Assembly (NCBI RefSeq): GCF_963677005.1
Contig: NZ_OY781616.1
Location: 3,582,501-3,646,500 of the forward strand
Direction: 5' to 3'
Length of the DNA stretch: 64,000 nucleotides
From: Maridesulfovibrio sp.
GTDB taxonomy: Bacteria > Desulfobacterota > Desulfovibrionia > Desulfovibrionales > Desulfovibrionaceae
Below the pieces are notes generated by a model. It made no database searches. It saw only the letters and a list, made by a program, of their open reading frames with translations, and was not told where the DNA came from. Positions 3,349-7,317 of the stretch are shown piece by piece. Both the position numbers and the translations under genes were made by a program. Positions within the stretch are counted from its first letter, which is position 1. Each line of letters starts with the position of its first letter.

Positions 3349-4461
3349 TTACAGGACGTTGTCTACCGGGACATAGTCAAGGTTGAAGGCTTCTGCAACC
3401 CCCTTGTAGGTAACTTTGCCATTTACGATATTCAAACCGGTTTTGATTGCGTTATTCTCAATAGCGGCTTTCTTCCATCCCTTGTTCGCAATTTCGAGGG
3501 CATATGGGAGGGTTGCATTGGTCAGAGCCATGGTAGAGGTTACAGGAACGGCACCGGGCATGTTTGCAACGCAGTAGTGGATTACACCGTCGATTTCGAA
3601 GACGGGATCACCGTGTGTGGTGGGTTTGGAAGTTTCGAAACATCCGCCCTGGTCGATTGCAACGTCGACGATTACAGCTCCGTCTTTCATGGATTTGAGC
3701 ATGTCTTTGGTAACGAGTTTCGGTGCCTTGGCTCCGGCCACGAGAACAGCACCGATAACTACGTCAGCATCAAGAACAAGTTCTCTGAGCAGTGCGGGGC
3801 TGCTCATCATGGGGAAACAGTTCTTGGGCATCACTTCGGAAAGGTAGCGCAGTCTTTCAAGGTTCATGTCGAGCAGATAAACTTTTGCGCCGAGTCCGCA
3901 GGCCATGAGTGCTGCGTTTGTGCCTACAACACCGCCGCCTATCACTACCACGTTGGCAGGAGCTACACCGGTAACGCCGCCCATGAGAAGTCCTCTTCCG
4001 CCGAAGTAGCGTTCAAGGTATTTTGCTGCTTCCTGAATGGACATGCGTCCGGCAACTTCACTCATGGGAGTGAGCAGGGGAAGATCTCCGGCACATCCTT
4101 TAACGGTTTCGTATGCAATTGCGATTGATTTGTTTTTGATGAATGCACGGGTCAGCGGTTCGTCCGGGGCAAAATGGAAATATGTGAAAACAATCTGTCC
4201 TTCGCGTACCATGTCGTATTCGGAAGGCTGCGGTTCCTTGACGTGCATGACCATTTCACAGTCGCCGTAGATTTCCGCGGGGGTTGCGATGATCTTGGCC
4301 CCGGCTGCTACATAGTCGTCGTCAGAAAATCCACTGCCCACCCCGGCTGCAGTTTCCACCATTACATCATGACCGTTGGAAATCATGATTTCGACACCGG
4401 AAGGGGTCATGGCAACTCTGTTTTCTTCAGATTTGATTTCTTTCAGGATTCCGACTTTCAT
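3349..4461 (-). CDS. ald: alanine dehydrogenase
   Basis: This 370-residue enzyme oxidatively deaminates L-alanine to pyruvate and ammonia with NAD+, or runs in reverse to assimilate ammonia. Family landmarks are all present: the N-terminal [18 protein letters not shown], the catalytic Lys in HVKEP (about residue 74) and catalytic His in YFHFAP (about 96), and a Rossmann nucleotide motif GGGVVG near 175 with the acidic ribose-binding residue in LLDMN. The length is normal. It is the first gene of the operon with the alanine symporter. A consensus sigma-54 promoter lies about 90 nt upstream, which fits an amino-acid-induced catabolic role that feeds pyruvate to the cell. Confidence 0.96.
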
Positions 4462-4546
4462 TACAATTCTCCTTATTAAATTGTTTTTACCCGCATGCTC
4501 GTCGGGCAGTTGAAAGCAGCATTAGAACTGTTGACTGCCCCCCTAA

Positions 4547-4562
4547 GGCAAGCCGCGTGCCA
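4547..4562 (-). promoter_or_regulatory. sigma-54 (-24/-12) promoter of ald-alsT
   Basis: Read on the minus strand the site is TGGCAC, five bases (GCGGC), then TTGCC. This matches the RpoN consensus TGGCAC-N5-TTGC with exact spacing. It lies 85 nt upstream of the ald start codon, just downstream of three palindromes and the gene for a sigma-54 activator. Confidence 0.88.
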
Positions 4563-4704
4563 AAGGCTTTGTGAACTTCTGGTGTCGTCGTTTTCTGATC
4601 GTAACCTGCTAAAATTTAATATGTTATTAAGTTGCAGTTGGCATAATTAATTCTAGTCATGCCTGTGAATGGATCAGTGAAATGGAAACGAAAAAGAGGA
4701 TTGT

Positions 4705-4720
4705 GGTATGAGTGGTTACC
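4705..4720. promoter_or_regulatory. candidate enhancer site 1 (GGTA-N8-TACC)
   Basis: GGTATGAGTGGTTACC is an imperfect palindrome with GGTA and TACC ends. It shares these ends with two neighbouring palindromes. The centre is about 158 nt upstream of the sigma-54 promoter, a usual distance for an activator site. Confidence 0.55.
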
Positions 4721-4730
4721 ATTTGGTGGC

Positions 4731-4744
4731 GGTATGGGCATACC
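4731..4744. promoter_or_regulatory. candidate enhancer site 2 (GGTA-N6-TACC)
   Basis: GGTATGGGCATACC is an inverted repeat of GGTATG/CATACC around two bases. It is 25 nt centre-to-centre from site 1. The spacing between half sites is two bases shorter than in sites 1 and 3, so it may be a variant or weaker site. Confidence 0.55.
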
Positions 4745-4769
4745 CTGCTGAATCAGGGCATGCACTATT

Positions 4770-4785
4770 GGTACGAATTCGTACC
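4770..4785. promoter_or_regulatory. candidate enhancer site 3 (perfect 16-bp palindrome)
   Basis: GGTACGAATTCGTACC is a perfect 16-bp palindrome, 40 nt centre-to-centre from site 2. It lies between the activator gene's stop codon and the ald promoter. Of the three it is the best dimer-binding site by symmetry. Confidence 0.65.
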
Positions 4786-4933
4786 GCAAGCGATGGCAGT
4801 CGTATAAAGTTCAAAATTATAACGTATTAGTTTGATAAATAAAGGAAATATATCAGAACAGCACAAGGCGGAACTGCTCGATAAAGAAGGGGAAGATGTC
4901 TGAAGCCTGTGGAAGCAGAAATCAATGATTAGT

Positions 4934-6583
4934 CTAGTGAAAATCCTCTTCCGCTGTGACTGGGGCCTCCCACGGGGATACCTTGCTTTCATTACGCAAT
5001 TGATGTTTTTCAATTTTTTTGAGCAGAGCAGTGTGCGATATGTCTAGCAATGTTGCAGCCTTGCGGATGCTGGGAGTGGAATTGAGCGCTTCTAGCAGGA
5101 TTTTTACCTCATAATCTGCAACCCTGTTTTTCAACGATGATTCATCATTTGATAAATCCTCGTTTGCCGGGGTCGATGTACGACACACCTTCCCGCAGCA
5201 CAGCGGCTGTGTATTCAGGTGGATGGATTCGGCTGATATCTGGCTGGAATCACTGATTATAGCGGCCCGTTCAATTACATTCTGCAGTTCCCGCACATTG
5301 CCTGGCCAGCTGTATGCGGCCAGTTTCTTGAACGCTTCCCTGCTGATTGTCTGTTCCTTTTTCTGCAGTTTCCGGTTGAACTGGTAAAGAAACGTTTTTG
5401 CCATCAGCGGTATGTCGGTGAGCCTTTCTCTCAAGGGCGGAATCTGTATGGTCAGCACGTTGATGCGGTAAAACAGGTCTTCCCGGAAATCACCGGTTTC
5501 CACCATCTCGTTGAGCTTTTTGTTTGTAGCGGTAATTACGCGCGCATTGACCGGTATCTCCTCGACTCCGCCGATGCGGCGAACAAAGCCGTCCTGCAGG
5601 ACCCGCAGGATTTTGGCCTGCGGTCCCGGGGGCATATCTCCAATTTCATCAAGAAAAATAGTCCCGTTCCGGGCGGCCTCAAACAGGCCCGGTTTGCCCT
5701 TTTTTTTGGCTCCGGTAAACGCACCGTCGATATATCCGAATAATTCGCTTTCTATCAACTGCTCAGGGAGAGCTGCGCAGTTGATGGGAATGAAGGGTCC
5801 GCTTCTTCCGCTTTCGTAGTGAATGGCCCTGGCGAACAGTTCCTTGCCGGTGCCGCTTTCTCCTGTAATTGAGACTATTGTATCAAGTTCTGCAATTTTC
5901 TTGGCAAAGGTGATCAGGTTCAGGATTGCCGGGCTGTTGCCTATGAAGTCATCAAAACTTATTTCAATAGGTGCCATGACCGCATCGACCATGGCTTTTA
6001 CTTCCTTCAGGTCTTTCATCAGCAGTACCGCGCCGACAAAATCTCCCTGTGAGTCATGAATAGGCTTGGCTGATCCGTAGAATTCCACTCTTCCGGTGCT
6101 GGTTACAGCGGATTTCCTTCTGCTTACCGGAACTCTTTTTTCCATGCATTCCATCAGGATGTTGTTCTTCGGAGAAATTTCACTGATGTGTGTATTTACT
6201 ATGCCCTCATATGGCAGGTCGAGGATTCGGCAGGCGACGCTGTTAGCGGTGTTTATAAGTCCCTTTGAATTAACGGAAATGATTCCTTCGCTCATCCCGT
6301 CAAACAGAATTCTGATCCATTTTTCCCGTTTTTCCTGGGGAAGTCTTTTGAGTCTGGACTGGCTTTCAATTCCCGGCAGGGTGGAAAACAGGCTGAGCAT
6401 TTGAGTGGTCTCTATGTTGTTTTCGCTGTTGTCCAGTTCGACAGATATCTGCGCAAATCCGTCTTTTTGCTCCACCTCCATACAGATGATGTTCAGTTCA
6501 TGCTCCAGCATGAGTCTGGTTATATCAAAAACAATTCCAATCCGATCCTTGAAGAGAAGTTTGAATTTTTTGCTTTCAACCAT
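4934..6583 (-). CDS. sigma-54-dependent transcriptional activator with ACT and PAS sensor domains (TyrR-like)
   Basis: This 549-residue protein is an enhancer-binding activator of RpoN promoters. In order it has an N-terminal ACT domain (about 1-75, an amino-acid-binding fold), a PAS domain (about 85-195), an AAA+ domain (about 210-440) and a C-terminal Fis-type helix-turn-helix (about 500-535). The AAA+ part is complete: Walker A GESGTGKE, the sigma-54-contact loop GAFTGA, and Walker B TIFLDEIGDM. The ACT-PAS-AAA-Fis order is that of TyrR/PhhR, which respond to amino acids. It is transcribed toward ald-alsT, ends 372 nt before that operon's sigma-54 promoter, and the gap holds three palindromes. 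I infer that it activates ald-alsT in response to an amino acid, probably alanine. The ribosome site upstream of the ATG is weak. Confidence 0.93.
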   Translation of the reverse strand: MVESKKFKLLFKDRIGIVFDITRLMLEHELNIICMEVEQKDGFAQISVELDNSENNIETTQMLSLFSTLPGIESQSRLKRLPQEKREKWIRILFDGMSEGIISVNSKGLINTANSVACRILDLPYEGIVNTHISEISPKNNILMECMEKRVPVSRRKSAVTSTGRVEFYGSAKPIHDSQGDFVGAVLLMKDLKEVKAMVDAVMAPIEISFDDFIGNSPAILNLITFAKKIAELDTIVSITGESGTGKELFARAIHYESGRSGPFIPINCAALPEQLIESELFGYIDGAFTGAKKKGKPGLFEAARNGTIFLDEIGDMPPGPQAKILRVLQDGFVRRIGGVEEIPVNARVITATNKKLNEMVETGDFREDLFYRINVLTIQIPPLRERLTDIPLMAKTFLYQFNRKLQKKEQTISREAFKKLAAYSWPGNVRELQNVIERAAIISDSSQISAESIHLNTQPLCCGKVCRTSTPANEDLSNDESSLKNRVADYEVKILLEALNSTPSIRKAATLLDISHTALLKKIEKHQLRNESKVSPWEAPVTAEEDFH

Positions 6584-7317
6584 TTTTCTGAGCTCTGTTG
6601 GCGATGTTAAGAATTCTGTGCTGCTTTCATTGCAGAATGAAAAAACTTTTCCGGATTGCAGGTTCGTGCATTACAAGAATCTTATGAACATTGATCCTGT
6701 CAGTCTGTCTCACCCGCATGTGTTCATTTTGGAGGAAATTATATATTTTCAGATTTTTTATGCGGCATATAACTTGTTGATTTTGTTTGTGAACAAAATC
6801 TGCTGGTATGCCGTTCGGAATTGTCGTGTGATCGTGTTACAAATACAAATAATGTACCAATACCCTGGTGGGAAAGCTTTATTGATGGAAATATTTTCAT
6901 CTGTATTGCGCCAAGTATAAGTGTATTAAATAATATATCGTTTAATATGCTTAAATAATTATATTTTTGACACGAAAAGGGTCATCAAGCCTATGGCGTC
7001 TCCTCTTCTGGTCAGGAATTTTAGTTGTATGATATCTTCTATTGCAGGGCTACGATGAAATCAGGCTGGGCGGGACCATGTTTATGAAATTTTTCACATG
7101 GTTAGTAAAAAAATGTAAAAACAGGGTGTTGGCCTGTTTTGCCCCGGTTTTGTCCGCTTAGAGAAGCAAAAAGGTACTTCTTTATGCGGAGAAAGCAAAT
7201 CAGAATTTGGAAACATTTTTTACCGGGTTGAGCTAATTTGCTGTCATTGCATGCAAAAATAATATTGCTTTTTTATTCCATTGGAAATATTTGTTTCCAG
7301 TGGTCGCTCAGCGCCTA
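6584..7317. other. AT-rich intergenic region, no gene seen
   Basis: The 734 nt upstream of the activator gene are AT-rich and have no convincing reading frame. One perfect inverted repeat, TTTTGTT-TGTG-AACAAAA at 6781-6798, could be an operator. A 10-bp hairpin at 7278-7303 follows the stop of the next gene but has its A/T run on the wrong side for a minus-strand intrinsic terminator. Confidence 0.5.
6781..6798. repeat. perfect inverted repeat, possible operator
   Basis: Arms of 7 bp (TTTTGTT and AACAAAA) flank four bases. It is about 200 nt upstream of the sigma-54 activator start. No regulator can be named. Confidence 0.35.

Follow-up and report, generated by a model that had tools for sequence, protein, structure and literature searches.

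In the Maridesulfovibrio sp. genome analysed here, a sigma-54 activator with TyrR-type sensory domains very probably switches on the adjoining genes for alanine breakdown through a sigma-54 promoter and a set of conserved upstream sites. We propose with considerable confidence that these elements form a local catabolic switch, in which the activator acts on 16-bp palindromes to drive sigma-54-dependent transcription of ald-alsT and also controls its own level. In the window (the whole stretch of 64 kb that was analysed), the three genes follow one another directly on the minus strand, first the activator (6583-4934), then ald (4461-3349), then alsT (3306-1879), so the promoter and palindromes lie between activator and ald-alsT, as the first-pass annotation had placed them. 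Its further proposal, that the neighboring protein would activate genes for alanine uptake and deamination, draws support from the conserved promoter, the palindromes and the gene adjacency. The ald product is an NAD-dependent alanine dehydrogenase (TIGR00518, 495.6 bits against a cut-off of 391.85), and alsT (agcS), which begins 42 bp after ald, encodes a sodium:alanine symporter (TIGR00835, 537.6 bits against 272.65). Among loci of the same genus, alsT comes after ald in all those for which the reading extended far enough. Near the converging alsT side, the end of a 23S rRNA gene and a 5S rRNA gene occupy positions 1-1062 on the plus strand. A second alanine dehydrogenase of a type widespread across the family, 55% identical to the first, is encoded elsewhere in the genome (G000:C1:3510268-3511365); it was considered as a target of the activator and rejected, having no activator-like neighbor and no array of sites in view.

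The activator gene (4934-6583, minus strand) encodes a sigma-54 enhancer-binding protein of the order ACT-PAS-AAA+(GAFTGA)-HTH_50 (Fis/TyrR-like), an assignment drawn from Pfam, a profile match and a structural model. Pfam returned PAS, sigma-54 interaction, AAA lid and HTH_50 domains; together with the ACT domain described below, these bear out the earlier reading of an ACT-PAS-AAA+-Fis activator with GAFTGA. The AAA+ sigma-54 interaction domain (PF00158) scored 216.6 bits, and in alignment both the GAFTGA loop and the Walker A motif (GESGTGKE) are intact. The C-terminus carries a Fis-type helix-turn-helix (PF18024, 34.1 bits, above the cut-off), HTH_8 being weak in the window member. The activator family has the N-terminal ACT and PAS domains typical of TyrR: ACT_4 was matched in 20 of 20 orthologues at E ≤ 0.1 (best 3.3e-7), the window protein alone falling below the Pfam ACT cut-off, and the N-terminal ACT-PAS sequence profile matched the E. 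coli TyrR structure 2jhe (2.4e-7, profile positions 3-146). Residues 5-78 of the AlphaFold model follow the strand-helix-strand-strand-helix-strand order of an ACT domain; a fold search returned mostly AAA+ matches and, unlike the sequence profile, did not inform on the ACT part. The genome encodes rpoN (sigma-54), which, taken with the -24/-12 target promoter and upstream sites, places the protein among sigma-54 enhancer-binding proteins. It does not belong to the curated NCBIfam TyrR family, scoring 322.2 bits against a cut-off of 576. Its best NCBIfam match, at 413 bits, is PrdR, the proline reductase activator of Clostridia, for which the cut-off of 795 is far above that score, so the protein is not PrdR; the target pathway also differs.

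The sigma-54 promoter of ald, TGGCACGCGGCTTGC (4548-4562, minus strand; -24 element TGGCAC, -12 element TTGC), sits 101 bp before the ald ATG (4461). The first-pass annotation had reported it as TGGCAC-N5-TTGCC (4562-4547), and TGGCAC-N5-TTGC proved to have no other perfect match in the 64 kb. Relaxing the pattern by one mismatch gives two matches where 5.3 are expected, and the site by itself therefore proves little; the weight is carried by conservation. All 13 genomes of the genus that carry the activator (of 17) retain the site. Relative to the ald start, its position is -90 to -113 within the close group and about -75 to -113 wherever activator and ald adjoin. The two genes are adjacent on the same strand in 16 of 16 close-group loci, which include two metagenome-derived genomes and Desulfogranum japonicum, and in eight loci of more distant genera. 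Distant homologues in four other genera, about 38-45% identical, also adjoin ald, as do further loci of another genus and one locus (L138) of another family. The link is not universal, because activator homologues at L139-L143, in another family of the order, are not beside ald within the stretch read. In the ald leader (4461-4536), a short hairpin (CCCG...CGGG) precedes the ribosome-binding site and, by eye, recurs in several relatives.

Upstream of this promoter lie the palindromes on which the activator is predicted to act. Three with GGTA...TACC ends had been noted at 4705, 4731 and 4770, one of them perfect over 16 bp, and all are present. A site matrix (PWM) was built from 33 ald-upstream sites of relatives with the window left out; the sites of relatives share the 16-bp palindromic form GGWAACWWWWnnTWCC, taken as the operator. 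By this measure, predicted site 1 is GGTATGAGTGGTTACC (4705-4720, 16 bp), 158 bp upstream of the -24 start (10.8 bits, shuffle P 0.019), and predicted site 2 is GGTACGAATTCGTACC (4770-4785), a perfect 16-bp palindrome 223 bp upstream (16.2 bits, shuffle P 0.0005). The best remaining position is a degenerate candidate, GGAAATATATCAGAAC (4844-4859), which scores 6.0 bits (shuffle P 0.22) and is probably a third operator on account of its position, 297 bp upstream. Counted from the first base of the -24 element, the sites of most relatives with long intergenic regions fall 156-159, 226-230 and about 300-304 bp upstream; in a few genomes there is a single strong site, at 169-170 bp. Sites 1 and 2 are 65 bp apart, compared with about 70 bp in relatives. 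The remaining palindrome, the 14-bp GGTATGGGCATACC (4731-4744), was rejected as a third operator: it is off the spacing and has no counterpart in the 15 other intergenic regions, and we regard it as probably incidental. The activator's site, first described as GGTA-N6/8-TACC, thus survives in its 16-bp form, GGWA-N8-TWCC (4705 and 4770); the N6 form (4731) does not.

Could palindromes and -24/-12 match alike have arisen by chance? Single exact matches are not rare across the genome, which holds 49 GGTA-N8-TACC sites (61 in the control, hence no enrichment) and 13 strict -24/-12 sites. In the window itself, GGTA-N6..10-TACC occurs four times against 1.2 expected, three of them inside 81 bp. Among the GGTA-N8-TACC matches listed, only the window pair stands less than 100 bp apart, and only this pair stands about 150-225 bp upstream of TGGCAYN5TTGC. 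What decides the matter is comparison: sequence and spacing are conserved in 15 other intergenic regions, and the spacing of about 70 bp is repeated in loci outside the training of the matrix (L126 at 162/230/308 bp, L127 at 139/209 and L138 at 214/283). The first-pass annotation had named conservation in related genomes as its check, and 16-bp GGWA...TWCC palindromes were indeed found upstream of the retained -24/-12 site in nearly every readable intergenic region where activator and ald adjoin. A chance origin is refuted by these comparative data, and we consider it scarcely credible.

An alternative hypothesis is that the palindromes serve another DNA-binding protein, either a dimeric repressor or one of about 20 other sigma-54 activators, with the neighboring activator acting elsewhere. 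The genome has 22 activator-like matches at E ≤ 1e-60, and a Crp/Fnr-like palindrome in the intergenic region of seven relatives indicates that more than one regulator can act there. Against this, the 16-bp motif recurs before the activator's own gene, activator-ald adjacency is kept across genera with the motif accompanying the activator clade, and no array was found at any of the genome's remaining strict sigma-54 promoters. In a tree that also included seven further activators encoded by this genome, those linked to ald grouped as a single clade (support 100/99). We therefore judge it improbable that another protein owns the sites and retain the neighboring activator as the protein that very probably binds them. 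A wider regulon was considered and rejected: with strict patterns scanned genome-wide, strict -24/-12 sites lacked arrays and GGTA-N8-TACC was not enriched. In 7 of 13 genus genomes (loci L014-L017 and L029-L031), the Crp/Fnr-like palindrome, TTGTGAATATnnnCACAA or a GTGA-N6-CAC core, lies between array and ald promoter, 98-102 bp ahead of the -24 element, and is followed by an A/T tract. The window lacks it; in the species that have it, ald probably receives a further regulatory input.

The activator also has predicted sites before its own gene. The distal one (7283-7298) has the top matrix score in the 64-kb window, and the proximal one (7209-7224; 16.3-16.6 bits), 74 bp away, ranks among the next two best, with a matrix trained on ald-upstream sites only. 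The proximal site stands 32 bp before the TACCTT hexamer of a putative sigma-70-type promoter, TTTGCT-17-TACCTT (7171-7199, minus strand), which we call the activator-gene promoter tentatively because it is a weak consensus match and lies 587 bp from the activator start codon. Eight of nine main-clade genomes have such a site ahead of the activator gene, with a shuffle P of 0.000-0.008 for the best one in each; it lies at about -78 to -102 from the activator start in six relatives (G129, G140, G117, G105, G155 and G152) and at -244 in G154. Pairs of own-gene sites are 69-74 bp apart in five genomes, the relatives showing 69-73 bp. From the promoter-proximal site to TANNNT is exactly 32 bp in seven of the eight genomes and 30 bp in the eighth (background 0.016 per base), the eight not being independent events because the genomes are related. 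Outside the main clade, clear own-gene sites are absent. The activator gene and its divergent neighbor were also checked for a sigma-54 promoter, and neither strand has a conserved one there. The conserved site at a fixed 32 bp from TANNNT, with no sigma-54 site, points to autoregulation, and the block fits a sigma-70-type promoter with the activator predicted to bind just upstream of the -35 region. Autoregulation is less certain in the window than in relatives because 641-715 bp separate the pair from the activator start codon, an interval that contains a terminator-like hairpin (7140-7118) as well as a promoter-like site (6985-6958). From promoter block to activator start (7171-6584), the window has about 590 bp, compared with about 25-50 bp in most relatives.

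These own-gene sites bear on a further alternative, namely that the protein works in the manner of TyrR, mainly at sigma-70 promoters as repressor or activator, and that ald is transcribed from a promoter other than the -24/-12 match. The ACT-PAS-HTH architecture, the half-sites and the sigma-70-like promoter beside the own-gene sites would all suit such a mode. The TyrR box is TGTAAA-N6-TTTACA, and the window shares its xGTAA...TTACx half-sites, set 2 bp closer together. The activator resembles the TyrR/PhhR family in domain order and in the match to 2jhe; it differs in its target, which is alanine rather than aromatic metabolism, in its score below the TyrR cut-off and in its intact GAFTGA, a motif that E. 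coli TyrR is reported to lack (PMC6375630). Moreover, the -24/-12 site is conserved at a fixed place before ald, and the array lies 150-300 bp upstream, as in sigma-54 activation. We therefore find this TyrR-like mode very improbable and keep to sigma-54 activation of ald-alsT. A dual mode is a more tentative idea, possible but rather doubtful on present evidence: a TyrR-like protein may act within one locus both as sigma-54 activator of ald-alsT and as sigma-70-type regulator of its own gene, using the same site-pair spacing, with operators about seven helical turns apart and DNA possibly wrapped round the ring.

The ald regulon was already predicted in 2015. By comparative genomics, Kazakov et al. 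proposed that DVU0569 regulates ald (DVU0571) from a sigma-54 promoter in D. vulgaris Hildenborough, and reported a conserved motif as well as the same gene order in six other Desulfovibrionales (PMC4641369). The species set included D. salexigens, and DVU0571 is the sole target listed; a literature search for DVU0569 returned this paper only. The TyrR-like sigma-54 alanine regulon of the first-pass annotation is thus supported, and it is not new. As in the DVU0569 regulon, the window has a one-component sigma-54 activator directly upstream of ald, with a sigma-54 promoter and conserved motif between them. DVU0569 differs in having GAFTGG and ald only as its target, compared with GAFTGA, alsT after ald, the three-site array and own-gene sites in the window. 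The window protein and two GAFTGG proteins (L023 and L096) were joined in the tree at 100/99, which places it in one clade with ald-linked GAFTGG activators and argues for orthology, DVU0569 itself lying outside the tree. What the present analysis adds is the length of the operator and the geometry of its array, the extension of the regulon to alsT, the sites for autoregulation, and the finding that the 14-bp palindrome can be set aside. A TyrR-type activator has also been linked to D-alanine catabolism in Azospirillum brasilense (TyrR-dadA, PMC6375630), which likewise has GAFTGA, an alanine-catabolism gene and three boxes between regulator and target, and which differs in its enzyme (a D-amino-acid dehydrogenase), its box and its host, an alphaproteobacterium.

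In Desulfogranum japonicum (L002), activator, ald and alsT are present at 71-88% identity, and its activator is nested among those of the genus in the tree. Because Desulfogranum, which belongs to another lineage of sulfate reducers, falls inside the close group, horizontal transfer of the three-gene cassette with its sites is likely. In one genome (G105; L017/L084), an apparent frameshift near codon 450 interrupts the activator gene and separates the helix-turn-helix part.

Genes, domains, promoter, sites, conservation and spacing are read from sequence; from them we infer binding by the activator, its ligand, DNA looping and the direction of any autoregulation. The activator would bind as dimers to GGWAACWWWWnnTWCC sites 158, 223 and probably 297 bp upstream of the promoter and, via its ACT and PAS domains, sense a signal that is most likely alanine or an amino acid related to it. 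Domains of these two kinds recognise many ligands; alanine would be the most economical signal because alanine uptake and deamination are the output. Signal-bound dimers on the array could then assemble an ATPase ring, which may contact the sigma-54 polymerase at 4562-4548 by looping and open the promoter. Transcription would start near 4536 and run through ald into alsT, giving alanine deamination and uptake. Binding to the second pair of sites, beside the sigma-70-type promoter, would control the level of the activator itself.

The locus confirms and sharpens an earlier predicted regulon, defining its operator and array geometry and adding the alanine symporter and likely feedback on the activator gene. 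Compact and conserved, the system lends itself to identifying what an ACT-PAS sigma-54 activator binds as its ligand and to asking why its operators are spaced about 70-74 bp apart.
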